Source of the DNA: Clytia hemisphaerica
Taxonomy: Eukaryota; Cnidaria; Hydrozoa; Leptothecata; Clytiidae
Assembly (NCBI GenBank): GCA_902728285.1
Contig: CACVBU010000812.1
Coordinates: forward strand, 538,352 to 602,351
Direction: 5' to 3'
DNA: 64,000 nucleotides
This document shows, piece after piece, positions 24,101 to 52,818 of the stretch. Under the pieces are notes generated by a model, which searched no databases, had not been told where the DNA came from, and saw only the letters and a program-made list of their open reading frames with translations. Position 1 is the first letter of the stretch, and every line of letters begins with the position of its first letter. The position numbers and the translations under genes are program-made.

Positions 24101-25491
24101 ATTTTGGATTTTGATTAAACTAAGAATATTGTAAAATTTGATGAAAACGCATTATTCTTACAGAAAAACTTGTATGTCGGATCTTTAATGGTTCTTGGGT
24201 AACATCTGAATTTAAAATTTTCTCACGTTATGTTTGAAGAAAGATCTCCGATGTAATTCTAATTTTTTTCTTTTGTTTTAGTATCGAAGCCGAAGAAATG
24301 GGAGTTTCAAGAGCTGAAATCAAACGTATCAGACAAGCAGAGAAAGACATCGACTCTCCTTTGAAAACTTCTTCTACTAACCTTTCTTCGTCCACTGCTT
24401 CTGCCACTCCTACTTCCAGCTCTGTCGTTTCCGCTTCTTCCACTAACCTATCTTTCACTACTCCTGCCACTCCTACTTCCAGCTCTGTCGTTTCCGCTTC
24501 TTCCACTAACCTTTCTTTCACTACTCCTGCCACTCCTACTTCCAGCTCTGTCGTTTCCGCTTCTTCCACTAACCTTTCTTTCACTACTCCTGCCACTCCT
24601 ACTTCCAGCTCTGTCGTTTCCGCTTCTTCCACTAACCTTTCTTTCACTACTCCTGCCACTCCTACTTCCAGCTCTGTCGTTTCCGCTTCTTCCACTAACC
24701 ATTCTTTCACTACTCCTGCCACTCCTACTTCCAGCTCTGTCGTTTCCGCTTCTTCCACTAACCTTTCTTTCACTACTCCTGCCACTCCTACTTCCAGCTC
24801 TGTCGTTTCCGCTTCTTCCACTAACCTTTCTTTCACTACTCCTGCCACACCTACTTCCAGCTCTGTCGTTTCCGCTTCTTCCACTAACCTTTCTTTCACT
24901 ACTCCTGTCACTCCTACTTCCAGCTTTGTCGTTTCCGCTTCTTCCACTAACCTTTCTTTCACTACTCCTGCCACTCCTACTTCCAGCTCTGTCGTTTCCG
25001 CTTCTTCCACTAACCTTTCTTTCACTACTCCTGCCACTCCTACTTCCAGCTCTGTCGTTTCCGCTTCTTCCACTAACCTTTCTTCAACTGTTCCTGCCAC
25101 TCGAGCCACTGTCACGTCTGCTACAGACTCTCTTCTACTTGTTCCTTTGACCATTTCTTCCACTGCTTCTGCCACTCCTACTTCCAGCTCTGTCGTTTCC
25201 GCTTTTTTTACTAACCTTTCTTCAACTGCTCCTGCCACTCGAACCACTGTCACGTCTGTTTCAGACTCTCTTCTGCTTGTTCCTTTAAATACTTCTTCTA
25301 CTAATCTTTCTTCCACTCCTACTTCTAACTCTGCTGTTTCAGCGTCTCCTACTTCTTTGACTTCTACAACTGTAACCTTACCTACATCTCCTACATCCCC
25401 TATCCTTTTTTCCTCTCCAAAGAACACGAATAAGTGGTTCGAAGGCATTAAGGAATACCCACCTTATGATATCAATATTCCAATAATGTAG
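21193..25491 (+). CDS. Four-exon gene with a Ser/Thr-rich 63-bp minisatellite in the last exon
   Basis: Exons 21193-21492, 23452-23544, 23795-23898 and 24282-25491 join in phase with canonical GT/AG sites. ATG 21193 is the first in-frame Met after the upstream stop-poor stretch and precedes a helical N-terminal region (YIQKVNDCVNDRQFIDMLV). Exons 2-3 are basic and helical (RDDVATS, ARRNIKRRLSSHIRDKR) and could bind nucleic acid. After IEAEEMGVSRAEIKRIRQAEK comes a long low-complexity region built of about eleven 21-residue repeats of the type SASSTNLSFTTPATPTSSSVV, giving a protein of about 570 residues. The annotated stop follows YPPYDINIPIM. Recognisable sequence continues beyond it in other frames (next entry). 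I do not recognise the family. A long antisense ORF here is only a by-product of the repeat. Confidence 0.7.
21680..21755 (-). pseudogene. tRNA-like sequence (tRNA pseudogene or SINE head)
   Basis: On the minus strand, box-A-like TGGTGTAGTGGTAAGA is followed about 35 bases later by box-B-like AGTTCGATACC. The acceptor and T stems do not pair properly, so it is not a functional tRNA. It lies in intron 1 of the minisatellite gene. Confidence 0.45.
22126..23363. mobile_element. Inner TIR element (GTGGGGGGCGTACG ends) nested in the outer one
   Basis: The ends GTGGGGGGCGTACG and CGTACGCCCCCCAC are perfect inverted repeats. CTTATA flanks both ends (22120-22125 and 23364-23369), a likely target duplication. 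No transposase ORF is present inside. A relative ending CGTACGCCCCCCCCC lies at 63527-63681. Confidence 0.6.
22525..22605. other. Inverted repeat inside the inner element
   Basis: Arms GGCTACGTCATATCTCC and GGAGATATGACCTCAGCC flank a smaller GCTTCTCTTCGAAGAGAAA hairpin. Confidence 0.45.
24400..25085. repeat. 63-bp coding minisatellite, about 11 units
   Basis: Near-identical 63-bp units (each starting GCTTCTTCCACTAACCTTTC) run in frame with the host exon. A shorter, more diverged block follows to about 25340. The unit length is a multiple of three, so copy-number change keeps the frame. Individual units differ by single bases (e.g. CTA for CTT, ACACCT, CCATTC), which shows recent array turnover. 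Confidence 0.9.
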
Positions 25492-26279: not shown

Positions 26280-28205
26280 TTCTTTATTTTCTTTATAAGG
26301 ATGGCGCACAATATGAGCATATTTATTTTTCTTATAAGCATATACTTTATAAGAATCAAATCAATAACTCTTGATAGACGGTGATATAGCTTTCGGTAAT
26401 TAGTTGTTACAAAGTAAACAAGGAATGGCGCATAATTTGAGCTCATTTATTTTTCTTATAAGCATATACTTTATAAGAATCAAATCAATAACTTTTGATA
26501 GACGGTGATATACCTTTCGGAAATTAGCTCTTTCAAAGTAAACAAGCAATGGCACACAACATCAGCATTTTTATTTTTCTTATAAGCATTTACTTTATAA
26601 GAATCAAATCAATAACTCTTGATAGACGGTAATATACTTTTCGGTAATTAGTTCTTACAAAGTAAACAAAGGATGGCGCACAATATGAGCATATTTATTT
26701 TTCTTATAAGCATATACTTTATAAGAATCAAATCAATAACTCTTGATAGACGGTAATATACTTTCGGTAATTAGTTGTTACAAAGTAAACAAGGAATGGC
26801 GCATAATTTGAGCTCATTTATTTTTCTTATAAGCATATACTTTATAAGAATCAAATCAATAACTCTTGATAGACGGTGATATAGCTTTCGGTAATTAGTT
26901 GTTACAAAGTGAACAAGGGATGGCGCACATTATGAGCATATTTATTTTTCTTATAAGCATATACTTTATAAGAATCAATTCAATAACTTTTGATAGACGG
27001 TGATATACCTTTCGGTAATTAGCTCTTCCAAAGTAAACAAGGGATGGCGCACAACATCAGCATTTTTATTTTTCTTATAAGCATTTACTTTATAAGAATC
27101 AAATCAATAACTCTCGATAGACGGTGATATACCTTTCGGTAATTAGTTCTTACAAAGTAAACAAGGGACTGTGCACATTATGAGCATATTTATTTTTCTA
27201 ATAAGCATTTACTTTATAAGAATCAAATCAATAACTCTCGATAGACGGTAATATACCTTTCCTTCGGTAATTAGTTCTTACAAAGTAAACAAGAGATAGC
27301 GCACAATATGAGCATATTCATTTTTCTTATAAGCATATACTTTATAAGAATCAAATCAATAACTCTTGATAGACGGTAATATACTTTCGGTAATTAGTTG
27401 TTACAAAGTAAACAAGGAATGGCGCATAATTTGAGCTCATTTATTTTTCTTATAAGCATATACTTTATAAGAATCAAATCAATAACTCTTGATAGACGGT
27501 GATATAACTTTCGGTAATTAGTTCTTACAAAGTAAACAAAGGATGGTGCACAATATGAGCATATTTATTTTTCTTATAAGCATATACTTTATAAGAATCA
27601 AATCAATAACTCTTGATAGACGGTGATATAGCTTTCGGTAATTAGTTGTTACAAAGTGAACAAGGGATGGCGCACATTATGAGCATATTTATTTTTCTTA
27701 TAAGCATATACTTTATAAGAATCAAATCAATAACTTTTGATAGACGGTGATATACCTTTCGGTAATTAGCTCTTTCAAAGTAAACAAGGGATGGCGCACA
27801 ACATCAGCATTTTTATTTTTCTTATAAGCATTTACTTTATAAGAATCAAATCAATAACTCTCGATAGACGGTGATATACCTTTCGGTAATTAGTTCTTAC
27901 AAAGTAAACAAGGGACTGTGCACATTATGAGCATATCTATTTTTCTAATAAGCATTTACTTTATAAGAATCAAATCAATAACTCTCGATAGACGGTAATA
28001 TACCTTTCCTTCGGTAATTAGTTCTTACAAAGTAAACAAGAGATAGCGCACAATATGAGCATATTCATTTTTCTTATAAGCATATACTTTATAAGAATCA
28101 AATCAATAACTCTTGATAGACGGTAATATACTTTCGGTAATTAGTTGTTACAAAGTAAACAAGGAATGGCGCATAATTTGAGCTCATTTATTTTTCTTAT
28201 AAGCA
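26280..28205. repeat. Satellite: about 16 tandem units of about 124 bp with higher-order structure
   Basis: Each unit contains CTTATAAGCATATACTTTAT, then AATCAAATCAATAACT, GATAGACGGT and TTTCGGTAATTAG. Start-to-start spacing of CTTATAAGCAT is 124, 124, 124, 123 in the first units. Units differ by diagnostic words (GCGCACAATATGAGC, GCGCATAATTTGAGC, ACAACATCAGC, GGGACTGTGCAC, GAGATAGCGCAC). The order of these types repeats after six units (about 745 bp): the variant with TTTCCTTCGG occurs near 27262 and again near 28007. The array ends abruptly at CTTATAAGCAG. Confidence 0.9.
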
Positions 28206-28219
28206 GTTTTTGAAAATGT

Positions 28220-28850
28220 TTTAAATATTTTTTAGAATTTATTATTGATACCTAAAACCTGTCAAAATTTGAAGTCAGTTGGATGACTAGATCAAAAGTT
28301 ATGCTAAATTTAAGATTTTTGGATTTTACAGGGTTTTAGCTGGATTTTATGATATGCCTGCACAAAAAAGTCATAAAACCTGATCTGGTCGGTGTATAAT
28401 TGTAAAATTTGGTATACATGCTGCTAATAGGATTATATCAAAAGTCAAGAACTTTCAGAGTGTTAAAAAAATTTTTCAGTGAGCTATTAGCAAAAGAGTG
28501 CCAGCCTGGTGGAAAACACCCCCCCCCTGATAAAAATAGGGTTAACTCCTTTATAGTGTCAGCTACAACCATTTATTACTAGTAAGAGGTGTATTACTGC
28601 ATTTGTGTGTTTGCGGTTTAACCGTAAATAGATGTGCAAGCTAAACTGACGTTTGTGGCGACGGAAACCGTGTGTGCAATTCAAAAGTCAAATAGAAAAG
28701 TCAATTAGAATAGGTAAGAATTATACAGCCTTTATACGACTTTTCAAGAAGAAAGGCCTCGCAAAGTATTATGTTGAAAATGTCTATAATATAGCGTTTT
28801 TATGAGAACTAAAACCTTAAACCTGGACAAGTTTAGAACACCCTTGTCTC
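28220..28850. other. Non-coding stretch with repeat debris
   Basis: It contains a GGAAAACACCCCCCCC...AATAGGGTTAA end similar to the MITE at 60151-60721, so it is probably half an element. No gene seen. Confidence 0.35.
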
Positions 28851-28859
28851 ATTGACAAG

Positions 28860-29000
28860 GTGGAGTTCTAAAATAAAATTTATAAAACCAGCAGAAGGCT
28901 CACTGGGGAAGAGGTGCTTGGTACTTCACGAGTATCATCACATAAAAAAAATAATGCATGATGGCTTACATTGCAAGTTTTACAAGGAAGATGCCATTAG
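28860..29000 (+). CDS. Candidate 5' exon of the plus-strand PHD-like gene
   Basis: Open from an AG at 28858-28859 to a GTATGT donor at 29001. It reads WSSKIKFIKPAEGSLGKR...EYHHIKKIMHDGLHC. Composition is protein-like. Its end phase does not match the next supported exon (30543), so an exon may be missing between them or it may belong elsewhere. Confidence 0.35.
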
Positions 29001-29753
29001 GTATGTCAAATTTACAAGAGTCTTCTTTATTGTATTAAGGAAAGAAATTTTAATGGGACAAGTTTTTGCCGAATTTAATTTCGTGGTTTTTCGACAAATC
29101 TGCGAAGTAATATTCCGCGAAACACGAATACTCTCAGGATTTAAAAAGTCACCCTTAAAATTGGTCTTTTTACATTTTGCAAACAAAAAATTCTCTCTAT
29201 CGCGAAATGAAACTCCGTGAAAATTTGATCTTACGAAAATTTCTTCCCTTGCGGTTATTATTTTATCTGTTTTTAGCCTTTTTTGTAATGTTAGGTAATA
29301 AGGGTTCTTTTGTGCAGTTACTTTCATGTTTATGTCACTTATTTTCTGATTGCTACACGTGCTTAAGAAAATACTCCCTTAGTGTATTCAAGGAAGGGGG
29401 ATTGACATGTTTTTTTTTTAGAGTGGTGTGTTTTTTCATTTCATGCTGGCTATTCTTAACTTTTCGGGGAAAATCATCCTAGGATATTCCTACCCCACTC
29501 ATAAGGTATATTCTTAGGTTAGTATACAACCTAACCTTGCACTAGCATGTACTACATACCTCTGGCAAAGATTTGGCATTTTTGTGAAAGCTTTTTAGAT
29601 TTACCATTGCTGGGTGATAATTGGCAATTTACTGGTAAAATGCTCTAAAAATTGACATTCATAGGTTCTGTTCTATTAAAGTTATTATTAATTCCATCAT
29701 GAATGTTCTTATAAATTATACTTCTTATAAAAAAGCGTGTAACAAAAGAAAGT

Positions 29754-30118
29754 ATTTACTCTTGTCTCCCAAATAGACGTCTCCCTGCTAATTGTCAAGA
29801 GAAAAAAAATCCATCACCCCCGCTCTTATTAAGACGCCCCTGCTAATTAAATTCGAATAATTCAATATTTTTTTGTGTAGATAGACCTCAAACTTGTTAA
29901 AATGTTACTTTTTGTTAGTATTGATTCTTATTCTACGTGTTCATTTGTTGAAGTTTCTCTTTTTTTGGTGAAATTGATATCAGTTAAAACAATTCTGTCT
30001 TCAAATTACCCCCTCCTCTTATTCCATCCCCCCGCTTATTACAATTTAGAAAATTTTCCTACCCCATGCTTATTCGGACCCCCCCCCCCCCCGTCTATTC
30101 GGGAGACAAGAGTAAATG
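29754..30118. mobile_element. MITE family 'TACTCT', copy 2
   Basis: The ends ATTTACTCTTGTCTCCCAAA and TTCGGGAGACAAGAGTAAAT pair as inverted repeats of about 26 bp. The interior has the same CTTATTA and poly-C layout as 19195-19761. Confidence 0.7.
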
Positions 30119-30542
30119 TTTCATCATCTAGAAAATAGGTATCTCAATGAACGGTAAAAATCTATTTATAAAACCACATAAGTACGATTAAAATATCTTT
30201 AAAAGCTAAAATGGAGTATCTTCACAGTTTTAGCTGGTTTTACAGTATCATTGACATTAACTGTTGAAGTTATTTTTTGGGACAAGTGAGTGCAATGGCA
30301 TTCTCGATAGCGTTAGCCTCTTTGTCAAATTTTGAAATTTTATGTTCAATCACTTAAAACCTATCAATGTCATAGTTTTAGGATTTATTTTTGATACACT
30401 CTTGTTTCTTTGTGCCACTTTTGATCTTCATGAGATTTTTCGGGCAGTAGTGATAAAATGAAAGGAAAAAAAATTCTGTTCTAAATTTGATGCTAGGTTA
30501 ACAAAAAGACTACACAACATTAACATTTAGCTTTCTTTTTAG

Positions 30543-33190
30543 CTAAACTTAAACGTTTCATCAACTGCTGTAAAGCAACGGTTCGGAATAAAGAGTACCG
30601 GCGGCGGATGCTTAAGATTTTACAAAGGGTAACTATTATTATATTTTTTTATTTTAGATATAAATAATGGCTAAAATGTAATACTAATTATTATAATTAT
30701 AACACAAGGAGCTGGTCTGTATACATGGGGCTGGTAGATACAAGTAACGTTATCGCTGCATGGTCATTCGCACGTAAAGATCAGCATAGCAACTTTTCTT
30801 TGTCTTTTTGTCAGTCAAAAGGTCATGGTATTCATTATCGTATTCTGGTTGCTCAACAAGCATGTTTGCTATCCTCTCTTTCATGACACTGAATAAAAAG
30901 AAACCATAATTTTTTTGTAGGTATTATTTTTAAGAGCAGGAGTTTCAATTTAAGACCTACTCACTCAATTGTCAACTTTGAGATTTGATTTGATTTGATT
31001 TGCTTCTTCTCGCTCGAGTTTTGTGTTGAAGACTCCTTAATCAACGGTTGGGTTTTTGTAAGTAATGCTTTTAGAAGGTGGGTATTCGCTTCATTGGCAA
31101 CATCGTCAAAAAAGATCAGCTCCTCGTCCGAACTATCATCCCTGTGCATGGATGTATGTGTTTGATCGGCGAATATTATGCATGCACATGTTATTGTGTA
31201 CGCGCATATTCGAGGGTGGAATTTGCTCCTTATTATCGCTAATGAAATACGAAAACAATGAAAACTAGGCTTTCTATGGTTAGTTTTCGGACGGTCTTTA
31301 ATTACCAACTCACTAACTAACGCATGGGGCCCACCTGCTTACAACAATGGCAATCGATATTAACTGAGTCTTTTTTCTAAAGATTGGTACAGCTTTATAC
31401 CAGCCTAGGTGTCTTGTCAGTCCAATGAAGTGATGACTACTATACCACTATGTCTTAACTTATTGTATAAAATAAACGCTAGAAATTTGTTATTGGTAAT
31501 ACGTCCTTCTAGATACTTTGTAGCATTTATGGTGGAGCCGATGAAGTCTATATCTGTGTACGGAACTTCCTTTTTGGCCCGGTAGGCACCATCTTGTATT
31601 TCCAGTTGTGTCCATAGATTTCCACGTACCTATAAACAACAACATTTTCTTTCTTAGCTACGAAAACTGGCAGAAGATTTCAATTTCGAATTTTCAATCT
31701 CCGTGAAGACAAAGGAAGGCGAAAGCATTGAGTACGGAAAAGTAAAAAGGACGGTAAGAAACGGGGTTTTTATCTGAAAAAGCTAATTAAAATTCAGAAA
31801 ACGCGTGTCAAACTAAAAATCAAAAACATCCAAACTGAGCGAGAAATCATTTTCACCAACTTAACGCGACAAGGACAAAAGTTGAAAACCAACAAAACAA
31901 AACAGCGCTAAACCTTAGGCCTACTCCACAAAAGCACATCTTAAGGGAAGAACTAAATAATCGTTGCATATGAATTACAGCTTTGTTTTTTGTGATATTA
32001 TGAATTGTTTTTTGATTTTTGTTTTTGCTTTGCCATAAACAGGAATGCTCTTACACTCGCGTATTAAACACGGTACTAGTGAGCATTTTGTCTATTTGAC
32101 GGTAGGCTCGACAATATTGAAATAACTTAGCGTCTGCTTCACTTTAGGAAAAAGCTCCCGTGAGTGATGCATTACCAACTTGCAGCAACAAAGAAAACGA
32201 CGATACACCCCTTCAGTTATCAAATGAACTCAAGGTATATATTTGAATTATTTTTGTAGTTGTATGTATCACCATGTACATGAATGACAGGGTCAAAATT
32301 GATAAACGGGAACCTGTTAAGCATTCGGGCTGCTTTTTATTCTGCTTACAGCAGCCCAACAATATCTAATATAACTAAATCCTGACTGTCTTTTCACCGT
32401 AGAAAAACTCCCCCCACAATACTTGACGCGCCTGGTTGCAGCAAAGATCAAACTGAAGTCGCATCCGTTCAGCCAGCCAATCAGTCTGAGGCATAATTTT
32501 AGTGATATTTGAATTTTATATTTCTGCAGAATTATGATTGGGTCAATATCATTCATTCCCTTTCAGCCCACCTTGTCATAGAACAATAAAAGCAAGACTT
32601 TTAGGGTAAATACGTGTTGGAAGTACACTTCAATGTGCCATCTGGGTTGCCAATGTTGATTCACACATGGCGGCGTATGTTTAGGGTGCATTGAGGGTGG
32701 TGAATTAGCAGGGTTCAGGCCAGAAACACAACTTTCAGTGCTCATTTAAATATATTTTTCACAGACTGCAAAAACATTGCAAAAAGTACGTACCATCACA
32801 CGGAAAAGACCAAAAAGCCAAACAAAACCTCGCCAAATTAAACCAATAGTGATTCCAGAATTACCACCCATCATCAACTTGCCTGGCAAGAAGGAGGCTG
32901 TGCCACAAGCGAACTTACCCTTGACAAAGTACTCCACTTGCCAGAATCCGAATCGCGGTGTCGTTTTCGGGTCTGAAGCGGACAAAAAGCTCCACACCCA
33001 GCACGGTGTAAATAACACGGCAATAGGCTGCAACACCATGGGTTGTGAACATTGGGTGCACGTTCGCTGTGCTGGGAAAAGGGTAACTGATGTGGGTGAA
33101 CTGGAGCACATCGAGCTGTTTTGTCCGTTGCACGACATTAACAATAAAAAGTCAAGAGCGAAACGAGCAAAACGAAAGCAGCTCTATTAG
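30543..33190 (+). CDS. Multi-exon gene ending in a PHD-like Cys/His module
   Basis: Exons 30543-30628, 31658-31753, 32148-32234 and 32765-33190 have canonical acceptors and donors and join in phase 0 throughout; the stop ends at 33190. The order is basic helix (KLKRFINCCKATVRNKEYRR), charged exon (EDFNFEFSISVKTKEGESIE), Ser/Asp-rich exon, then a basic linker. The end is a Cys/His cluster (CQNPN...HTQHG...GCNTMGCEHWVHVRCAG...FCPLH) with PHD spacing, including the W-x-H-x-x-C core, and a basic tail (RAKRAKRKQ) that could be a nuclear signal. The first Cys pair is irregular, so zinc binding is inferred. A further open segment at 32394-32489 (ILDAPGCSKDQTEVAS) does not fit the phase. The 5' end is unresolved. 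Confidence 0.7.
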
Positions 33191-36100
33191 GTCGGGTTAT
33201 ACATTATTTTTTTATATGCATAACATTTATTAACATGTTTAGGCTCAAAATTGCAAAAAATATAAACATAATGCTAAGCATAGCTTGGCAATAACATACT
33301 GTGTAAATCCTAACTTTGAATCTAAGTAAATGAAGAACTCGATAAGAAACTCCATTTTTTAAATTAGCATAACAGTTTGTTGGCCGAGGGTGAGCATTTT
33401 TATTTTTCTATTGTTCTTAACAATAGGCCTATTGTTCAAACTCTAAATTCTCACCCTGATATTCTTATAGAATTTATTCTTATTAAAAAAAGCGTGTAAC
33501 TTACTCGTTCTAGCTTCTCCATTAACCTGACTGCAATCAACCACTGTTCCTCTGTTAGAGCCCAGGTGTCTGGAAGCCAATAATTTTTTGTTTACTTCTT
33601 CCAATAGGGTGTCACCTAGGAATTTAAGGTTTTATTTTGCGTGAGTTCCACTTTCCACAATAGTGTACACATACAGTATCTTTTATTTGGACTTCAACAT
33701 GTACTGCCAGCTCTATTTCTTTTGCAGATGATTTTGTAGGTTACTCTGTTTTCTTGCAGATAATCAATTTTAAAAACAAACCTCCTTGACAGTTGTCCCG
33801 AGTAGACACCAGTTGAAGAAGCCATGGTTTTCTTGCAAAGTTCTTTCACGTCGTCTGGCATTTGCGCATCCAGCTTTACAAAATCAGCGTAAACCTTGGG
33901 AAGGAAATATGACAGTTTTTTGTTTTTTGTTAGACTTGCTTAGTTCACCTTGCTCCTGGGCTAACTTTGTTACAATCAGTATCATATTAAGGCAAGGACT
34001 ATGTCAAAGTTTCAGTTCCTACTGTTCGATTATTATTTGATGTAGCACATTATGTTCTTATCTGATATTCCGATGGCGTATTGGCGGCCGCCCACGCTAA
34101 AGCTCTAAAGGAGCGGGCCAATATACCATCGGAGAGGTTTAGTAGTGGCCCTTTGATGTGCCGACAACAGTTGGGTTCAATGGCTATATCTTCGCTTGCT
34201 CAAGAATTATGTTCGTCCCGACTGAACAGAAATTTAGCATGAAAATGTCTGCTGCGCCGACCGTCAAAAACTATTTTTATTTATACTTTTGGCGCTTCAA
34301 TGACAAAGCAAATTTCGGATTCAAGAAGAGCAAGTAGTGAAGAGCTTTTGTTAGATTTTGGTTGTTTTTTGGTTTGTTTTGGTGGACTTTTTTTACAATA
34401 TAAATGTCTTTATGCTTTCTTAGTACTGTATTACTTTTAGTATTCAGTGTAATTTCTGTAAATGCACCAACCTTTTAAAGATTGTTTTTTACAAGCAAAT
34501 GTTGATTATTTTTTGTTTGTTTTGGTTGACTGATTTTTACTGATTTTTCTCAAATCCAAACTCAAAGATCATAAAGAAACAGTAACAGGTATGTTCCTTA
34601 TGCTTTTTTCAGTAAGTTTCATGTTGGTATAATCTTGTGCGGTCCTATCAAAACGACTGTTGACCGCCAGACAACTGAACACAACCGACTGACCGACAAC
34701 AGTCAAAGTCAGTCAAAGTCTCTAGCAGCAGACAAACATGTGTACAAGACAGATAATTTTGTCTTCAGAAAGATCTACAGACTTCTGTATAGGTAGTTTG
34801 TATCTTACTAACGATTAACCTCACTATTTGTGTACCAACAGAACAGCCCAATTTTGTAATTTTACAGAGCACATTGAAAATTCACTTTTGAGGTCCTGAA
34901 AACTATGAAGGTTAGTGTAATATTTATCGAGTATGTCTAGGTAAGTAGGAAAAAGCAATAAATTCATGTTCTAAGTTGTATTTCATGTAAATGAAGCTAA
35001 ATTTAGGGATTGTTTATGTTTGTTTACTGGTACATGAATATGATTCCGAACCATATCGAATATGGTGCTAATATTGAATATGGTGCTAGCCTAGAAAATA
35101 CAACAAATCGGATGCGAATCAGATTTGTTATCATTTTCTGCCTAGCACCCGCATCCGATATGGAATCAGATGCTAACTTCCTATGTTGATCGTTTCCAAG
35201 TTCCTCACAAAATGTTTCAACGCGGTGAAGTCAAATTCCGTAATGCAAACCTTCCAGATGTTAAAATATGCCCGACCTTCAGAGCAAAGCGTGTCGTAGC
35301 ATATTTCCACATCTGGTATCAGATAAATTATGTTCTTACCCGTTGATACTTTGGATGGTTTCTCCCGAAAAACATTGGTGAAAATTTTTGTAGCGATGCC
35401 ATCATGCCTGGTTAGAACAAGAAAGGTATTTAATTTTTATTTCATAAAACCAACTTTGATACATGTTTTCTGTTTCAGTCTTTATTGGCGTGCTAGGGAA
35501 ATAGGTGAGGTATATATAAGCTTTAAATCGTCTGCTAAAGGAAGAACTTGACACGTGATTGCTACTTTAAAAAGGTACGAACCATCGTAGTTGTTTCGTC
35601 GAACACTGACTCTATAACAGACAATGGATAGCATAATATGCAGTATCATATGCTGCATATAAACGTAATTTGTTGACAGCTCATTCTTCTCTTCTTTAGC
35701 CAATGCCCACTCCCAATAGCCATCTGCGTTAGCATTTTTTTTTTTTCTTTATTGAGACATAAACACAGGGTACATTACGAACATATAACATACAAAATAC
35801 TACTAAACATTAATATAGTCCCTCCCTCCGCTAGAAACTTAAGTTATATCGCCAGAGGTAAGGCTATGAAGAAAGGAAAAAGTAAAACAAAGTGTGACGT
35901 GGAGAGAGCTATGGTTGTAGTAGACTAAAATAACGCAAGCATTTTGTTCGCCACATTCCTGAATGTAGGGTAGCACCAGCTCGTCCGTGAAGGCAAATAA
36001 CATAATCTCTATCGTTCACCATGTTTTATGGTGATTGGTGCATGCTTTAATCTAGAAGCAATAGTATATATAGGTGAGTCAAGTATTTTTTGCTGGTGAA

Positions 36101-37119
36101 AAAGTTTTTACTTTCGATGTAATTAGACTTGAGAGTACACTTCTGATTTTTTCCGATCTCTTTCGACATCGTTGTATTGTGTGCTTAAAGATTAAATCTC
36201 TTAAATGTAAATAAAGCGTACGTTATTTTGCTGAGCTGGTGTGGCAAAGCCCATGTCAATAGCCAACTGCTTTATGAAAACCTCCCAGTTAAGATAAAAA
36301 AAATGATTTGCACAAGATGTAACAGTCCTGCAAATAGAGTATAAATGAAACAGCTAGTTGATTGTAAGAATAACAGAAAGAGAAGGCTAACGTTGTCAAC
36401 CAGTTAAAATGATTTCTGTTTTGCCTTCTATTCATAGAACGTTTGCACTTCGGCATATCAATGTAATTTTCATGTCCAATAGCTTGTCCAGACCGCTGTA
36501 CTTTTTAAAAATAAGTTACACAATTTTAGAAACTGAAAAAGACACAATTATTGCAGCAAAAATCGTCAGAAAAAATCCAAAGCAGCCAACATTAGTACAC
36601 GCTTAATTTCCTTTAATTGGAGTGTCGGCTCTCAGTATCGAAATCATAGGCAAAAATTTCATACCCGGTATAAGAACAATCCAATCAAATTCCATGTTGG
36701 TAGCAGCGTTTTTATCGTAACATTCGTGTACCTACAACAATATTAGATTGCTTGAGATACGAAAACATCTAATAGCAGAGTAACATCTTTGCATGTTTTT
36801 CTTGGTTGTTACTTTTTTGTGTCACAACTATATCGCTTACCCACGTAATTGACCTTAGCTGAGTGTGTATGGAATAAACCCGGATGTACTAGACCTATCA
36901 TAACCTTAATTAAGGAAGAAGAACATGTGGTAAAGTCTTCTCCTCATACTGTGTTGTCTTGCGCACCTCGCCTTTAATGCAGATTCGGTGTAATACGATA
37001 GATCGCAAGTGTCACAATGAAAAGTGTTATTGATTATCTCTGCAACAATTGGAAATATTAGTGCAACCACCTCCAAGAAGATCCATCGACGAGTTCCATT
37101 GTGGTACCGTCCAATTCCT
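30750..37119 (-). CDS. Unrecognised multi-exon gene interleaved with the plus-strand gene
   Basis: Well-supported 3' exons that join in phase: 33569-33505 (WALTEEQWLIAVRLMEKLER), 31629-31460 (VPYTDIDFIGSTINATKYLE), 31141-30965 (DDSSDEELIFFDD, acidic, Ser-rich end) and 30888-30750 (MLVEQPEYDNEYHDLL, stop TAA). Further open exon-like blocks with protein-like composition lie upstream: about 33894-33790 (VYADFVKLDAQMPDDVKEL), 35439-35182 (TKIFTNVFREKPSK, YDTLCSEGRAYFNIWK), 35735-35482 (DGYWEWALAKEEKNELS), 36328-36230 (NHFFYLNWEVFIKQLAIDM), 36733-36659 (NMEFDWIVLIP) and 37119-36960 (HNGTRRWIFLEVVALIFP). I could not phase all of these together, and the true 5' end may lie further right. I do not recognise the family. 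It shares a locus with the gene at 30543-33190 on the other strand. Confidence 0.55.
33380..33500. repeat. Dispersed end 'CACCCTGATATTCTTAT...GCGTGTAAC'
   Basis: The segment TCACCCTGATATTCTTATA followed by AAAAAAGCGTGTAAC recurs at 44932-44970. It is one end of the TTTATAAGAAC family seen at 21899-23400. It overlaps the right edge of intron sequence next to the minus exon at 33505. Confidence 0.5.
34069..34133. other. Strong hairpin
   Basis: 17-base arms TCCGATGGCGTATTGGC and GCCAATATACCATCGGA (one mismatch) around a 31-base GC-rich loop containing GGCGGCCGCCCACGC. Possibly a very short foldback element. Confidence 0.55.
34200..35180. other. Intronic or intergenic stretch, nothing coding
   Basis: AT-rich sequence between exon-like blocks of the minus-strand gene. 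It contains an imperfect inverted repeat at about 35040-35165 (GATTCCGAACCATATCG / CATCCGATATGGAATC, with CCTAGAAAAT / ATTTTCTGCCTAG inside). Confidence 0.35.
35736..36040 (-). mobile_element. 3' end of a poly-A retroelement, inserted in minus orientation
   Basis: On the minus strand the sequence ends TTTATGTCTCAATAAAG followed by about 13 A, i.e. an AATAAA signal plus a poly-A tail. Preceding sequence (around 35940-36020) contains a short readable piece (VNDRDYVICLHGRAGATLHSG). This fits a 5'-truncated non-LTR element. The tail abuts the minus-strand exon block starting at 35735. Confidence 0.5.
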
Positions 37120-37945: not shown

Positions 37946-38467
37946 ATGTCAGCCAACAAAAAACCTGGTTGGATGGAATGTAGAAATAAAGCTGCTGACA
38001 AGAGACTTGGGGAAAAAAAAGATTTCGGTAAACAACAAACCAAACCAAGTTTTATTAAGGTTCAACGTTTAGAATCAAAAGTTTCAGGGAAGACTCAAAT
38101 CTACAGTCGATATGGAGCAATCGAGTTTGTCAATATTGAAGCATATGATCGTCTTTGCCTTCAAACTGTCATTCAAGCATGCAATGTCCATTTTGTTGAT
38201 GAAATTGGTTTCCACCAAACATGTGAGCTTTTGGTTGGACAAAGAGGTCCGTCAGTAAAGCAACAAAGCCAATTTAGTTTGGCTGATATTTACCATATCA
38301 GGTTTATCCAAAATCCAATTTACTCTACTTTTCCAACTTTAAATTCATCACGGAAAAGATGTTTGACATCCACTAAGAAGAAGGAAGACTCTGAAGTACC
38401 TTCCACTAGCAAACGTTCTCATTATAGCCCACCAACACCTCCACCAAGTATATTCTCTCTAAAATGA
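37946..38467 (+). CDS. N-terminal part of the alpha-kinase locus
   Basis: ATG 37946 opens a 173-codon ORF starting MSANKKPGWMECRNKAADK. It has a globular stretch (YGAIEFVNIEAYDRLCLQTV, GFHQTCELLVGQRGPSV) and a Ser/Pro-rich linker (SHYSPPTPPPSIFS). It stops at 38467 where the kinase frame takes over, so I treat both as one gene with one or two frame breaks between about 38425 and 38550. No introns are evident, unlike most genes in this window. The N-terminal region is not one I can name. Confidence 0.55.
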   Translation: MSANKKPGWMECRNKAADKRLGEKKDFGKQQTKPSFIKVQRLESKVSGKTQIYSRYGAIEFVNIEAYDRLCLQTVIQACNVHFVDEIGFHQTCELLVGQRGPSVKQQSQFSLADIYHIRFIQNPIYSTFPTLNSSRKRCLTSTKKKEDSEVPSTSKRSHYSPPTPPPSIFSLK

Positions 38468-39240
38468 TCAAATGTGGCAAAATGATGAAGCCTTTCAAAA
38501 CACTCGTAGAGATAGAACATTTCAATGTACAAGAAATGAAGTGGGATGATAAACGTCAACTTGTTGAATTTCAAATTGATGAGAAACCCTTTGGCAAGGG
38601 AACATTTAGAGCTGCATTCATGGCCAATTCTTCTCACAATCTTTTTAAAGGTAAGAAGTGGGTAGCCAAAAAGTATCAAAAACAAACTGTGGATGATTTA
38701 AAAGATCTTGACCTTGACCCATACCAGCATGGTAGAAAACTGGTCCAAATGCACTCATTAGCAAAAAATCTAGCAGAGTCTTTTACGAGAAGCATAACCT
38801 CCATCAAATTCGGCACAGTCTCCTACAACGAAGTGTATTTTGGTATATTAGACGGGAAAGTGATTACGGTTGAAGAATTCGCCAGTGGCAAGTTTGTGAA
38901 ATATGTCAACAATAATGGTGAAATCTGCAAGAATGTTGACAAACATGGTCAGAGTAAAGCTGAAGCCTTTGTTCACTTTACGTATCAAAAATCAGAAGAA
39001 AAGCTTATGGTTCTTGATATCCAGGGCTGTGGAAAAACCTATTTTGACCCAGAAATTGCAGCCGGTGAACATTTTGATGATCAAGATGAACTCTTGTTTT
39101 GTGGTGGAAACCTCTCCCAAACAGCCATCAAGAACTTCAAACATCTTCACCAGTGTAACAAATTTTGTTCTGATTTATTATTAACTCCATTCAAAGATGT
39201 AGATGATCAAGCATCAGAAAAGAACACAGAAAGTGAGTAA
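38425..39240 (+). CDS. Alpha-kinase domain (eEF2K/vwkA/TRPM7-type atypical protein kinase)
   Basis: The frame containing ATG 38464 encodes a full alpha-kinase domain of about 225 residues. FGKGTFRAAF is the nucleotide-binding segment, and WVAKKYQK carries the probable ATP lysine. VLDIQGCGKTYFDPEI carries the catalytic D-x-Q-G and the GxGxxxxDP loop, and GNLSQTAIKNFKHLHQCNKF followed by C is the zinc-binding HxCNxxC end. All residues expected for activity appear present. Known members are Ser/Thr kinases that phosphorylate residues in alpha-helices; the substrate here is unknown. An AATAAA at 39459 lies about 220 bases after the stop. Lack of introns and the broken join to the N-terminal part suggest a retrocopy, but I saw no poly-A tail or target duplication. 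Confidence 0.9.
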
Positions 39241-42309: not shown

Positions 42310-45300
42310 ATGAATACCAACTGGAAATATGATGACTTACTTAAGGGAAAATTGGAGTTGTATGTTGCTCAATGTTTGAACCGAACTGAGATTGTTGAAC
42401 TTATGAAAAAAGAATTTAGCATACTTGGAGTTTGAGTACTCTAACCAGGAGATTCAATCATTTTGGAATTAGATATACTGATACTGAAGTTCCTGTCGAG
42501 TCTGCCAGAGAAGCTGTTTCAACTGAACTTCGAGGTCCAGGGCTACAGAACCATGCATAAAAAACTACGTGTTGTTCATGGTTTGAAAGTTCCTAGGAGT
42601 CTTGTTCATGATGTTATGTTTTTGGAAGAAAGTCAATTACTGAAGGACAGAAGACCCTGTCAGAAGAAAAAAAGAGTGAAGGGTCATTTTGTATCAAATG
42701 GACTTAATTGGGTACACTCCTTTGATGGCCATGATAAGCTTATGGGCTATCAGAACAGCACCTTCCCTCTAGCTGTGTATGGTTGTATCGACACTGCTAG
42801 TCGAAAGATACTTAAGCTCAAAATTTGGACTTCTAACAGCGACCCAAAGCTTGTTGGTAAATGGTATCTTCAACATATCATTGAGACGAAAAGGATTTCA
42901 AATATGGTTCGTCTTGATAAAGGTACTGAAACAGGTGATCTTGCGGCTATTCATTGTTTTCTGCGTTCCCGTTGTGACGAAAACTTGAAAGACCCTTCAT
43001 CTGTGATACGCTATGGTCCATCAACCTCAAATCAGGTACTTTATAGGATTAATTTAAGAAACAACAATTGTGAAGTAAAACATCATCTTTTGTCTGAGGT
43101 TGAAAACGCAATTAAATACTACAATTAAATAGATTACACTTTTTTATAAGAACACGAAAAGCCTTCGTATGTTCTAGATTTTTTGAACTTTCAGCCTAAC
43201 AACGTTCTTAAAATGTTCTTATTTTTGGAGGTTTTTCTTTCCTAAGAAATTGCATATTTTGCAGTCTTCAAAGCCTTCAAATGTTCTTGCTATGTAATCC
43301 TGTGTACTCAATTTTTTTGGCCCTCAAAGCCAACAAAAAAACCGTCAATCTCATTTGAAGACTACAAAATATGCAATTTCTTAGGAAATGGTACCGAAAT
43401 ACTAGAAACATTTCTACAATCATTTTTGGCTTTCCTCAGAGCGTTTTTGAAGGAAATTGCACTTGAAATGTAAGAAAATATTGCTTGTGTAGCCTTAGCT
43501 GTCATAAAGTTTGAGTAATTTGTAACAGGGTATTTAAGAGAAGGTCAGACTTTGGAGTAAACTGTAGATTGTGTTACTGCTCATTTTGAAGGAGATAACA
43601 ACCTCTCATTTTGTTTTCATCAACTGTTTTTTTGAAACTTAAAACCAATTTCAAAATGCTTAAATACATATGTCATTCTCTTTGGTTTATGAAATATTTG
43701 AAACACTTTTTTATTGGTATAGATTGAGCGATCGTGGAAAGAACTACATGAAAGACTAGAGAAATTCTTCAAAGGTCAACTCCTGTTCTTAAAATGTGGC
43801 GGACATTATGACCCAAGTTGTGAACAAGACAGGTAATTTGCTTTACATCAATCTTATTTTCTGCATGCAATAATTGACCAAAGATGAATATTAAGATCCG
43901 ATAACGCTCCGCAACGCATACGTCAAGTTATTGAGGTTCAAGTTATTGTTTCATAATGTTCAGTGTTTGATATAGAAATATCTGTTAGCCTTTTTAGACA
44001 CCATGTCTGCAAACTGTGGCAAAAACTGTTAAAATTTAAAATAGTTTTGACTTTTGGTGGTACCATTCAGTATGCTTTTGTACTTTTAGGATGATTTTAG
44101 CCTATATCATGATCCCAATCCTCCAAGCCGAACTTAACACATTCAAAGATGTCATCTGGAATTGCCATCGCATTAGATATAAAAAAGACCAAGTTTTACC
44201 AGACGGTGTTCCCGAACACATTTATACCGTACCTGAGGTGCATGACCTTGTTGAATGTGGTAAGTTCCAGTCAACTTTTATTCGATTATTGATGTCTTCA
44301 GCTCAGTTTTTGCGAAGATAATCTGTGGCAAATCTTTTTTACAATACTTAGGTATTTGCTTCCAGGCACATACGCTAATCGTTGATCTTTACAGCGTCAT
44401 TTTGATGAACCAGACATAGTGTCCTTCAGGGTCTCTCCCCCCCCACCTATGCCTAGAATGAAAATTTTCCATTCCCCCCTCATTTTTCCCCACCCTGCCT
44501 CCAAAGATTTTTCTGTCCCCCCCCCCCCCCTCAAGCATAAAATTAAAAAGCTGTAATTTGATGAACTTAACGCTTATTGTTTTCCCTAAGTTAGTTCTAA
44601 TTCAAGAATAAATGGAAAGGATGGTTGTTTTTAAACCATAATATTGATAAAACTAAGCATTATGCTATATAATCTCATAAAACCAGTTGTTTTTCAATTT
44701 TGAATTGATTTTGGTGAGTCCCCCCCCCATGCCTAGAGTGAAAATTTTCCATCTGAATTTGGGCTTTCGAATGAACATTTGAAGCTAACATTACATTCAG
44801 CCTCAAAGTTTGAATTCAAATCTAACAAAGGAAGCAGTTTCTTTCTGATAACCAAATACAAAATGACTACCCAAATTCTGTGTAACTCACACTGAGGGTA
44901 TTCATAGAGTATTCTTACGATTTGGCCAATTTTCACCCTGATATTCTTATATAAAAAGCGTGTAGCATAAGTTTTTACTAAACCTCGTAAAGAAATTTCA
45001 CTTTAGTAATGAAACATTTTGTGGCGTCTCCGGTACTTTAGACCCCAAGAAAAAAAGCAATCTTGGAATTTATAAACTCTTTTATTTATCTCCTCCCCGT
45101 GTACTTCTTGACTGACCTTCTTCATTGTAGGCTTTGATGTATCAGACCAGGATATCAAATCCCTTATAGATGAATCGGGAATCACACCAGAAGATGCCGA
45201 CTACCTTAATGATGATTTTAGGCATCTATGTGAACAATATCTACCCAATCTAGAGCTCGTTAAACCTCATGAATGTCAGGAAGCGTATATATACTTAAAA

Positions 45301-48994: not shown

Positions 48995-49838
48995 CTAAAT
49001 CATATTCCACTGCCATTGAACTTGTCCAGGTCCAAAAAAATGATCAGCAAACATTTCTCGAACTTGGCTAGCTGTACGGTTATACGCGTTGTTTCTTCTA
49101 TTTCGTTGCAATTCGAGGAAAGCCAAGTCGGCTAAATTTTGCTCACGCCATGCTCCTTCAGTTACTTCACCGGTTTCTTCGTTGACTTCGTCGATAAAGC
49201 CCTCTGGTGTATAAGAGTCGGTTGAGTGTTCCCTAAGCATATTATGAATTACAAGTGAAGCAAGTGTGATCGTTACAGCCTTGTCAGGATCAAGTGGGAT
49301 TTTGGTCAAAAAGATTCGAAATCTACTTGCCAAAATGCCGAATGCATTTTCAGTAACTCTCCGGAAACGAGATAAACGATAGTTGAAAACACGACTTCGA
49401 AGTGTAAGGCCTTGTTGACTGTAAGGTTTGAGACAATGAATACCCAAAGGAAAAGCTTCATCTCCAACAAATACATAGGGAACAGGGACTGATTCATGAT
49501 TAATGTAATTGGGATCGTTAGAACTTGGCAGTAATCTTGGCTCAGGAATACCCAGATTACCGCTTTCTAATGCCTTATAGAAGGAACAATTTCGGTAAAC
49601 GCCCCCGTCACTAATACGCCCTTGACAGCCAACGTCTGCAAAAATGAATTTGTAATCGTGATCAACAAGTGCCAGTAGAACAATGGAGAAGAAACCTTTG
49701 TAGTTGTAAAATTCGGACCCACTCCCTTTCTGGTGGGCAATTGCAATATGTTTCCCATCTGCTGCCCCAAAACAGTTAGGGAACTGCCAACGACCCTCTA
49801 CTTGTTTCGTGATCTTAAGCCATTCAGCAGGATTGGAT
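48995..49838 (-). CDS. Harbinger transposase, C-terminal two-thirds (DDE_4 domain)
   Basis: An open frame from the LINE junction to the stop at 48995. It carries EWLKITKQVEGRWQFPNCFG, AADGKH (first catalytic Asp), FADVGCQGRISDGGVY (second Asp), VFVGDEAFPL and RRVTENAFG (catalytic Glu). These are the DDE positions of PIF/Harbinger transposases. A C-terminal DLAFLELQRNRRNNAYNRTA helix follows. The reading frame itself is undamaged; only the LINE splits it from its N-terminal part. Confidence 0.92.
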
Positions 49839-52818
49839 GGTCATCATCATCATTGCTCGACCGCAGTCGAGACAATGGATTCCACTCGCTGCCGCCAGGA
49901 GTCGCGGTTGCGCATGGCAGTGCCCAGGTCGCTAAGATCAAGGCCTGTATCCCTGCTCACCACATCCGGAAAGGTAAGTTTTCTCGATCTCTGAGCCACA
50001 CGTTTAGGTTTCCAAAGCAATAGGGAGGAAATAACCTCAGATGAGGCACGGAAACAATGACCAGCAAATTGAACGCGCTTGGCTTTAAGGAGGAGAGAGA
50101 TTGGTTTCAAGGAACCGTATATGGTACGTTTTGTTGGATGGTCACGCCAAGAGAGATTTTTAACCCTTCTCAGAAGTCTGGTATAGGTACCGTCTAGTTG
50201 CTTTTCAAACTTTTTGGTAAGGGACCAGGTTTCTGAACCATACATAAGAATTGGCTCAATAGTTGACTTGAAAATTTTAACTTTGAGACTAGGGTCGATG
50301 AAGGAAGATGACCAAATACTATGCAGCTTATTGCATGCACTCCAAGCTAAACCTTTGCGAATTTTAAAGTCTTTTTCAGAAGAAGAGATGTCTGATGATT
50401 CGTTAACATTAAGAGTCAAATATTCGGTTTTGGACTCATTGAGGTATAGGCCTGTACAGTTTGCAGCAGATTCAAGAGCAATTAGAAGATTTTGTGCATC
50501 CTCTAGGGTAGAGCTGATAAGTGCTATGTCGTCAGCAAAGTCTGTATCTGTTAAATGAACGGCAGGATTACGTGGACCAAGCCTACGTTGAAGAAGAAAA
50601 CCGCAGCTAGATATTTTATCAACAGAAACGCGCATAAGGTAATCGACAACTAGAATAAAGAGAAATGGTGCAAGGGTATCACCCTGGAGAATACCAGCTA
50701 AAATAGAAAAAGTTGAAGTCTCACCATCAGGTGTTTGTACTGAAGATTTTGTATTAGTGTACAGAAGTTTTATGGCATCAATGATCTTTTGAGGGATGCC
50801 GTAAAGAGAGAGAATATCAAACATTAAGTCGCGATCAACCGAATCAAAGGCTTTCTTGAAATCAACAAAAATCAAAATTGCTTCAAGATTGAAGTTTCTA
50901 GCTTCCTCTAAGATTCGTCGAAGAGCAAGAACTTGGCTTAAAGTAGAACGACCACTTCGAAAACCGTTTTGATTTTTACGAAGAATGGGTTCAACATGAA
51001 GCCGTATTCTATTAAGAAGAAGCTTATTATAGATTTTTGCTGCGATTGGGAGAAGAGAGATACCACGATAGTTTGTGGCAAGACTAAGGTCTCCCTTTTT
51101 TGGTACTGGAACGATGGTCGATTTTAACCAGTGTGTTGTACAAACTTTGTCTTCAAACGCGAGGTTGCAAAGCTTTAAAAGGATATCATGAAAATTTCTG
51201 TCCTTCCAGATAATAGGTGGTATGTTATCTGGACCGAGGGCCTTGCATGATTTTGTTGTGGAAAGGACCTTTGTCAACTCTTCCATGGAAAAAGAAAAAG
51301 TAGATATATCTAGAGGGGGAGAAATTTGCTCTCGTGGAAGAAAGTTATTTGTTGCTAACACCGGTTTTTTACCTAAAAGATTTTTAAAATGCTGTAACCA
51401 ATTATCTAAGCGTTTTTTATCCGAGCCACCTTTCAGCTGGATGGACGGTTTTGAGTTCTTGCCACTTAGTTTTTGTACTACTTTCCAAGCATCGCGATGA
51501 GAATTTTTGGAAAATTGCTCAGACATGTCCTTCAGCTGAGTATCAATAAAAGAAACTTGAGCCTCTAGGTAGGCCTCGTCAAGTTTAATCTTGGCAGAGG
51601 TAAGTTGCTCCTTGCGTCTCCGCGTTGGTGCTGCATTATACAAAGAGGAAGCTTTTGTTAGATTTTCTCTTGCTTTCTTGACTAAGGGACATTCTTTTGG
51701 GTCTGATTTAGCTCGTTTTTGTTTTCTTGGAAGTTGCTCTAGGGCAACTTTTTCTGTGGAATCTTTAAGACAAGAATACGCTAGCTCAACATTATCTTTG
51801 GTCAATTCTTCGTTGAAAAGAGTAGAGAAACGGTTAAAGACCTCAATTCCAAACATGCTACAGACTTCAGGATTTGTAGAGGCTCTTTTCCAATCTATTT
51901 GTTTTAAAGGATTAGGTTTCGAAGGTTTGGAAGAGCGAAGACTAAGTTTGACCTTAGAAGATACGATGCGATGATCAGTACTCACAGTAGCAAAGGAAGA
52001 ATATGCTCTTGAGTCCTGTATGCTATTACGCCATTTTTTCCGGAAAATAATATAGTCGATCTGTGCTTTATCGCCGTTTGGATATTTGAAGGTCCAGAGA
52101 TGATTAGCACATTTCATGAAGGAGTTATTTGAGGAAAAAAGGTCAAATTCTTGTAGAAGATCTAAAAGGTGTTCACCGTTACGATTTGTAGCCTTGTCAA
52201 ATGAAAAAGGAACATCAGGGTAGGCAAGTTTGGCATTAAAATCACCGGCTATGGAGAGAAAATTATGCCTTGGAATATGGCTAAGCAAGTTTTTAAGTGA
52301 CGAATAAAACTCCTCGACATCTTCCTCGGGAGCACTGTTGTGGGGGCTATAGGCACACACTACTGTTAAAACTGGGTTGCTGGAAAATTCAGCAATCACG
52401 ATTCTAGGTGTAATTTTTTCAATTCTTATTAAGTTGCTGGCTGCTCTAGATGAAAGAAGAAAGCCAATCCCTCCAACAGAAGCATTAACCGTGTTTTTTG
52501 TTGCAGATGAGGTGATAAGTTGGGAGGAAGAAATAGAATCGTAAATTAAATCATCGTCAGGGTGAAATATTCGATGTTCTTGAAGAGCAATGATGTCTAT
52601 AGAGTTATTAGACATGGAGAGTGCAAGTTCATTAAGTTGTGTTGGTCCACTTAGTGTGCGAACGTTAAAAGTACTGATTTTTAAGAAGTTAGAACATCTT
52701 AAAAGTTTTGTTGGTTTTGATTTTGATTGATCAGGTTCCATCTTATCTGGAGAGACCCTCCCATTGGGGTTTAAGATCTCACCTTCATTGGATCCCAAGG
52801 TGGATGGTAAAGACATTG
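49838..52818 (-). mobile_element. Non-LTR retrotransposon (LINE, RTE-like) inserted in the Harbinger transposase
   Basis: The insertion splits the codon run MSLPS / NPAEW. On the minus strand ACCATCCAAT is present at both junctions (5' side just before 52818, 3' side at about 49827-49838), a target duplication of about 10 bp. The 3' end is a short ATG trinucleotide run, not poly-A, which fits RTE-type elements. At the 5' junction a 13-base word (GTCTTTACCATCC) is repeated, probably added during insertion. Confidence 0.88.
49850..52816 (-). CDS. Endonuclease-reverse transcriptase polyprotein of the LINE, intact
   Basis: 988 codons without interruption. The N-terminal AP-like endonuclease has STFNVRTL, IIALQEHR, SIAGDFNAK, DYIIFRKKW and STDHRIV. 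The central reverse transcriptase has VPVPKKGDLSLATNYRGISL, LIFVDFKKAFDSVDRDLM, GILQGDTLAPFLFI and the catalytic FADDIAL box. The C-terminal region has LMYGSETWSLTK and LRRVKNLSWRDHPTKRTIY, as in RTE-like proteins. The enzyme nicks target DNA and reverse-transcribes its own RNA there. The first Met lies almost at the insertion junction, so the natural start may be the Met at about residue 25 (MEPDQSK). An intact frame suggests a recent insertion. Confidence 0.93.
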   Translation of the reverse strand: MSLPSTLGSNEGEILNPNGRVSPDKMEPDQSKSKPTKLLRCSNFLKISTFNVRTLSGPTQLNELALSMSNNSIDIIALQEHRIFHPDDDLIYDSISSSQLITSSATKNTVNASVGGIGFLLSSRAASNLIRIEKITPRIVIAEFSSNPVLTVVCAYSPHNSAPEEDVEEFYSSLKNLLSHIPRHNFLSIAGDFNAKLAYPDVPFSFDKATNRNGEHLLDLLQEFDLFSSNNSFMKCANHLWTFKYPNGDKAQIDYIIFRKKWRNSIQDSRAYSSFATVSTDHRIVSSKVKLSLRSSKPSKPNPLKQIDWKRASTNPEVCSMFGIEVFNRFSTLFNEELTKDNVELAYSCLKDSTEKVALEQLPRKQKRAKSDPKECPLVKKARENLTKASSLYNAAPTRRRKEQLTSAKIKLDEAYLEAQVSFIDTQLKDMSEQFSKNSHRDAWKVVQKLSGKNSKPSIQLKGGSDKKRLDNWLQHFKNLLGKKPVLATNNFLPREQISPPLDISTFSFSMEELTKVLSTTKSCKALGPDNIPPIIWKDRNFHDILLKLCNLAFEDKVCTTHWLKSTIVPVPKKGDLSLATNYRGISLLPIAAKIYNKLLLNRIRLHVEPILRKNQNGFRSGRSTLSQVLALRRILEEARNFNLEAILIFVDFKKAFDSVDRDLMFDILSLYGIPQKIIDAIKLLYTNTKSSVQTPDGETSTFSILAGILQGDTLAPFLFILVVDYLMRVSVDKISSCGFLLQRRLGPRNPAVHLTDTDFADDIALISSTLEDAQNLLIALESAANCTGLYLNESKTEYLTLNVNESSDISSSEKDFKIRKGLAWSACNKLHSIWSSSFIDPSLKVKIFKSTIEPILMYGSETWSLTKKFEKQLDGTYTRLLRRVKNLSWRDHPTKRTIYGSLKPISLLLKAKRVQFAGHCFRASSEVISSLLLWKPKRVAQRSRKLTFPDVVSRDTGLDLSDLGTAMRNRDSWRQRVESIVSTAVEQ

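Follow-up and report, generated by a model that had tools for sequence, protein, structure and literature searches.

Within a 64,000-nucleotide stretch of the Clytia hemisphaerica genome (hereafter the window; contig C558:538352-602351, the genome comprising 417 Mb in 951 contigs), two predicted multi-exon genes on opposite strands carry exons inside each other's introns, the plus-strand gene ending in an exon with a PHD-like module (the PHD exon) and the minus-strand gene encoding a longer protein. We interpret this locus as a decaying copy of a dispersed, low-copy unit whose two convergent genes are interlocked and which is most likely a mobile element, a reading in which our confidence is about even. 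A mobile element is favoured because the gene pairs are dispersed on many contigs, keep a conserved order and show decay after copying.

Two interlocked exon chains

The exons are named p1 to p4 in the plus-strand chain and m1 to m4 in the minus-strand chain, numbered 5' to 3' in each; the last four entries below are candidates.

30543-30628, plus strand: p1, AG before and GT after, open; on the far side of m2-m4
31658-31753, plus strand: p2, AG/GT borders, open
32148-32234, plus strand: p3, AG/GT borders, open
32765-33190, plus strand: p4, terminal exon, AG before, TAG stop; PHD-like zinc-binding module
33569-33505, minus strand: m1, AG/GT borders; immediately 3' of the PHD exon p4
31629-31460, minus strand: m2, AG/GT borders; within plus intron 1
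31141-30965, minus strand: m3, AG/GT borders; within plus intron 1; frame partly shifted relative to C904 and C59
30888-30750, minus strand: m4, last minus exon, AG before, TAA stop
35723-35583, minus strand: candidate body exon ending ...RRNNYDG; AG/GT borders, phase fits the next exon
35407-35340, minus strand: candidate body exon with the motif FFGRNHPKYQ; AG/GT borders, phase fits; relatives at many places
33894-33810, minus strand: candidate body exon, VYADFVKLDAQMPDD...; relatives found
about 28867-29000, plus strand: possible upstream exon, uncertain; open frame 28837-29217, GT at 29001, donor GTATGT

Joined, p1-p4 form a single open frame of 230 codons plus a stop (first exon in phase 2), and m1-m4 a single frame of 182 codons plus a stop. 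The plus intron 30629-31657 contains m2-m4, the minus intron 31630-33504 contains p2-p4, and m2 and p2 are separated by 28 bases (31630-31657). An earlier sequence-only reading had proposed these eight exons, and their coordinates, canonical borders and single phase per chain were all confirmed, as were the interleaved geometry and the 28-base spacing as sequence anatomy in the window.

Both chains are 5'-incomplete. Neither p2 nor p3 contains an in-frame ATG, so a normal start needs some upstream plus exon; m2 also has none and starts at its acceptor, and consequently requires an upstream exon, in or beyond the plus gene. For the minus gene there are at least three further candidate exons upstream of m1, among which exon 35583-35723 is better conserved than the rest of the protein, most of its remote relatives being 33-52% identical, and the donor at 33810, one of several for exon 33894-33810, preserves phase with m1. 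The upstream plus candidate (28867-29000) has no direct phase fit to p1, and outside the window it is matched only in C904 (22 of 45 residues, 82%).

Open frames by themselves are weak evidence here, and it is homology that carries the case. On the plus strand of 30400-32760, a count that includes the claimed exons gives 251 interval-frame combinations of 60-200 bp that are open and bounded by AG..GT; such chains being common, the exon claim needed homology evidence. Under a codon-usage model trained on 13 long frames of the window (picked by length, repeat-like genes included), the claimed frame scores highest among the six for p2, p3, p4, m2, m3 and m4, second for m1 and third for p1. Against open noncoding AG-bounded stretches, the codon scores have P values of 0.59 (p1), 0.13 (p2) and 0.011 (p3) on the plus strand, and of 0.033 (m1), 0.26 (m2), 0.072 (m3) and 0.0027 (m4) on the minus strand.

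Opposite-strand pairing in dispersed relatives

All copy counts given here are lower bounds, since the genome searches score only the best candidates. A search with the plus product returned 46 rows in 36 clusters, the window's own included, nearly all of them matching p4, and a search with the minus body exons upstream of m1 together with m1 and m2 (E<=1) returned 103 rows in 76 clusters. Minus relatives lie within 10 kb and on the opposite strand at 25 of the 36 PHD clusters; outside the window and C904, all 22 paired clusters have their nearest minus piece 3' of the PHD exon, at a distance of 355-3,109 bp. One of these clusters, on C928, merges two opposite-strand PHD places 11 kb apart, the pairing holding for the place at 1483757. 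No partner was detected for 11 of the 36 PHD clusters and 51 of the 76 minus clusters. The cluster pairing thus describes a convergent gene pair, present in several dispersed copies as would be expected of a DNA transposon. Copies of the locus, for which the sequence-only reading had advised looking, exist at two levels: four besides the window that are recognisable in the DNA, and 36 PHD-exon clusters (the window's own among them), 25 of them paired.

Minus-strand exons probably flanking the PHD exon

If the minus gene runs through the PHD exon, relatives of m2 and m3 would be expected on that exon's other side. The first query, the last exon of C254 joined to the C904 reading of m2-m3, gave 26 rows at E<=10; setting aside C558, C904, C59, C254 and C346 (10 rows) left 16 further places. 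At 10 of these 16 (C188, C928, C853, C118, C417, C133, C76, C119, C796 and C49) the match lies 202-1,327 bp 5' of the PHD exon on the opposite strand, compared with a chance expectation of 0.0014.

C188, C853, C118, C417, C76, opposite strand to the PHD exon: m2-like matches beyond it (first query)
C928, C133, C119, C796, C49, opposite strand to the PHD exon: m3-like matches beyond it (first query)

Minus body exons occupy the other side of the PHD exon at nine of the ten, and weakly at C49 (E=3.15). Among the remaining places, same-strand minus body exons lie 0.3-10.3 kb upstream of the matches at C677, C396, C605, C732 and C281, where no PHD exon was detected, and the match at C827 stands alone. 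The m2-type alignments at C188, C853, C118, C417, C76, C732, C677 and C396 span the artificial joint of the query, so that part of each is meaningless, and all eight contain stops. A second, joint-free query recovered five of the ten places (C188, C928, C133, C119 and C796) and, from the other six, C605, C732, C827 and C281 while missing C677 and C396. With the window reading of m3 as query the remote m2/m3 exons were missed even at E<=10, whereas the C904 reading found them.

Other exons of the chain also have relatives. C254:181331-181471 is related to m4 (50% over 46 amino acids, stop-ended, with the same acceptor phase), and a weak relative of m1 (C557:15293-15385, E=1.7) is located between body and PHD exon. 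Single-frame relatives at C635, C542 and C378 (E 0.05 to 1.7) show matches that extend from the body across m1 and end only 7-8 residues inside m2.

The firm count, judged from sequence matches, is therefore five recovered places, and up to ten, at the predicted position and strand. Minus exons probably flank the PHD exon on both sides in divergent copies too, and these positions support the view that half of the interleaving (the PHD exon inside the span of the minus gene) holds for the family. Full interleaving, as sequence anatomy, belongs to one close set of copies.

Close copies and decay

Beyond the window, DNA-level copies were found at C904, C59, C155 and C158.

28758-36954: colinear with the C904 copy (578577-609345), insertions interrupting both copies

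The C904 interval is swollen by insertions relative to that of the window. C59:279064-280388 matches window positions 30200-31467, C155 matches 32824-36580 and C158 matches 32824-36162, the last two being mutually related over at least about 9 kb at 79-92%. Exon p1 is kept in C904 (96.5%) and C59 (88.4%) with no indels.

Compared with C904, exons are no more similar than introns. The plus exons nevertheless show indel constraint against this one copy, with 0 indels in 690 aligned bases where the non-exon rate predicts 7.2 (P about 0.001); for p4, 2 indel events were counted in C158 (3.5 expected) and 3 in C155 (4.6 expected). Against C904, omega is 0.80 for the plus chain overall and 0.46 for p1-p3, and for p4 it is 0.47 against C158 and 0.43 against C155, single values that are not to be pressed, as other p4 frames reach 0.25 against C904.

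The C904 copy lacks the equivalent of window 31573-31662, and with it the p2 acceptor, the m2 acceptor and one third of m2, so that its plus gene is also short of one acceptor; it lacks six bases at the m1 donor as well. This donor (GTAAGT) is unchanged in C155. Two length changes distinguish m3 of the window from its counterparts in C904 and C59 and put part of it in a different frame. Given the minus-exon indels (detailed below), the losses in C904 and the frame shifts in m3, the minus gene looks decayed in both the window and C904.

Interspersed repeats also lie within the locus. A 1.27-kb repeat at 34058-35327, in an intron of the minus gene, has at least 39 other places at 90-96% identity, its ends being TTATCTGATA and TATCAGATAA with the flanking direct repeat ATTATGTTC. 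A repeat of about 360 bp at 29758-30119, with inverted ends ACTCTTGTCTCCC and GGGAGACAAGAGT and at least 38 other places at 85-90%, and a 150-bp repeat at 31766-31917 in plus intron 2, with at least 32 other places at 95-98%, are both absent from the C904 copy.

Predicted products

No Pfam family scores above its cut-off for either partial product, in agreement with the earlier remark that neither was recognised as a familiar family. The C-terminal module of the plus product matches PHD_NSD (E=0.007) and zf-HC5HC2H (E=0.009), and the PHD-related matches reach 17.1, 16.6 and 13.1 bits against cut-offs of 23.9, 29.1 and 24, respectively. As no Pfam PHD match exceeds its cut-off, we speak of a PHD-like module and not of a PHD finger; the sequence-only reading had used the same term, and it holds at that level. 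Searches of solved structures gave weak matches only (best E 0.016 and 0.85), an AlphaFold model of p4 alone was unusable (mean predicted local distance difference test score, pLDDT, of 45), no relatives of p4 were found among viral contigs, and an Rfam scan of the window gave no match above the gathering score.

DUF6589 (PF20231) was considered for the minus product and rejected, as the partial product has no DUF6589 match. This family has at least 105 matches in the same genome, many in long open frames, and, among the matches listed and compared by eye, none of its places coincides with a relative of the minus gene; no paper on DUF6589 was found in the open-access literature searched.

Weighing the alternatives

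Several results weigh against a mobile, family-wide interlocked unit. Inverted repeats at the termini of 28758-36954 do not rise above the chance level (matches of 10-14 bp), and a search at 28758 and near 36954, with the right end not located, found no target-site duplication; the check for terminal repeats around the locus that had been proposed earlier thus came back empty, and the unit ends of C155 and C158 have no clear repeat either. The number of DNA-level copies is low, and the partial minus product, incomplete at its 5' end, contains no transposase domain above the Pfam cut-off. Against C904, omega is 1.09 for p4 and 1.75 for the minus chain, to be read with the caution given above, and the four minus exons show no constraint (5 indels compared with 5.2 expected in C904, and 10 compared with 6.0 in C59). 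Moreover, the pairing analysis admits minus rows up to E=1, and the ten matches beyond the PHD exon (E of 0.0013 to 7.7) are weak singly and take their weight from position alone. The joint-free query did not recover C853, C118, C417, C76 or C49; C118, C417 and C853, with nearly equal spacings and scores, look like near-identical copies, as do C677 and C396, and C119 and C796 may be close. No remote relatives of p1 were found, and likewise none of p2 or p3; since these exons and the upstream plus candidate have no remote relatives, full interleaving is seen in close copies only, p1 lying beyond m2-m4 in the window, C904 and C59 only. From the earlier suggestion of a two-gene mobile element, the co-occurrence of the genes in many copies stands, while mobility gained no support from terminal repeats or a target-site duplication, neither of which was found.

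The same shortage of terminal repeats and of DNA-level copies would suit a host gene pair, convergent and interlocked, that was multiplied by segmental duplication and has since decayed in the window copy, as would the introns, the many short exons and the segmental-duplication-like similarity shared by C155 and C158. We regard such a host pair as rather unlikely, because the pair is retained in 22 clusters besides those of the window and C904; these sit on different contigs and are mostly divergent, and the comparison covered the pair alone. Minus body relatives with no detected PHD partner are also numerous (51 of 76 clusters). A quite unlikely alternative is simple nesting, in which p1 is open merely by chance and the minus intron contains the entire plus gene, whose start would be at p2 or further downstream. 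The poor codon score of p1, its want of remote relatives, its neutral change relative to C59 (7 of 9 codon changes nonsynonymous) and the commonness of open AG..GT intervals all point that way; however, p1 is free of indels in both C904 and C59, and with p2 only 28 bases from m2 and no in-frame ATG in p2 or p3, an upstream plus exon would still be needed for a normal start.

It is also conceivable, though unlikely, that the locus holds three genes, namely a minus body gene ending at m1, the plus PHD gene and a separate minus gene m2-m4, with no minus transcript crossing the PHD exon. Relatives of m2 and m3 never occur in one continuous frame with the body, the matches at C635, C542 and C378 stop shortly after entering m2, and C254 and C346 have m4-like exons with no body or PHD match. 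On the other hand, m1 joins m2 in phase, the m1 donor is preserved in C155, and m2, which starts at an acceptor and has no in-frame ATG, requires an upstream exon; a single transcript may join m1 to m2. That both chains are chance assemblies and no genes exist was already disfavoured and is scarcely credible: open chains are easily found, but neither the family-wide protein similarity nor the recurring geometry would be expected from chance.

A possible mechanism and its implications

If the locus is a mobile two-gene unit, the plus gene would encode a short basic protein ending in the PHD-like zinc module and the multi-exon minus gene a longer one from an unnamed family, the two genes lying tail to tail with the PHD exon, p2 and p3 inside a minus intron and m2-m4 inside a plus intron. 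By analogy with RAG-like elements, the minus product might do the element's DNA work, and the PHD-like product might tether or regulate it on chromatin, while the interlocking would hold both genes in one indivisible unit. That the family constitutes a new class of two-gene mobile element, its opposite-strand genes threaded through each other's introns throughout, is a tentative proposal, possible though on the unlikely side. If it were true, loss or separation of either gene would break its partner, and the overlap between their primary transcripts could serve as antisense self-control. The apparent recurrence of one side of the arrangement in distant copies means that selection for gene inseparability could be studied family-wide. 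To our knowledge, opposite-strand pairs with mutually intron-lodged exons are single curiosities, easily suspected of being annotation errors, and no description of such an interlocked two-gene element, whether as a gene arrangement or as a PHD-bearing transposon, was found in the open-access literature searched, most subscription journals being outside its scope.

Neighbouring repeats and open frames

Two tandem arrays precede the locus. The array at 24238-25491 has a 63-bp unit (13.6 copies at 24368-25240), a strong strand skew and frames open for more than 400 codons on both strands, and that at 26299-28205 consists of 15.3 copies of a 124-bp unit. Downstream lie an alpha-kinase domain frame (38428-39240, Pfam E=5e-34), a frame with a weak integrase-core match (42445-43128; PF24764, E=0.0008, below cut-off) and, on the minus strand, long frames of 281 and 997 codons (48995-52843), which from their appearance by eye we take to resemble a Harbinger-type transposase and the reverse transcriptase of a long interspersed nuclear element.

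Comparison with known systems

In RAG-like (RAGL/ProtoRAG) transposons, as outlined in one account, RAG1-like and RAG2-like genes are convergent and closely juxtaposed, and RAG2 carries a PHD finger (PMC7204232). The present locus resembles that outline in having two convergent, tail-to-tail genes, one of whose products ends in a PHD finger there and a PHD-like module here, and differs from it in that its genes are interlocked and not merely juxtaposed (PMC7204232). It differs further in that no terminal inverted repeat or target-site duplication was found (the right end not being located). The Pfam matches listed for the partial products include no kelch, RAG1 or RAG2 family: the 5'-incomplete minus product has no match over cut-off that would mark a RAG1-like transposase, and the partial plus product, in place of a kelch propeller with a RAG2-type PHD, shows no more than weak matches to PHD_NSD, zf-HC5HC2H and PHD. 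Kinship with RAG-like elements is thus not supported by these sequence comparisons, and the locus would instead add, beside those elements and without evidence of kinship, a convergent pair with a PHD-like partner.

Proteins with DUF6589 are likewise an expanded family of this genome, repeat-like in character, but the minus product does not match that domain. Some proteins of Ginger DNA transposons carry PHD fingers, in that case within the transposase itself, whereas here the PHD-like module belongs to a gene separate from the minus gene, and the Pfam matches of the two partial products include no integrase core. Finally, genes nested on the opposite strand within introns are a general phenomenon. 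As in ordinary nested genes, an intron of one gene at this locus houses exons of its opposite-strand partner. What differs is that in the window copy the nesting is mutual, and that one side of it seems to be repeated in members of a dispersed family.

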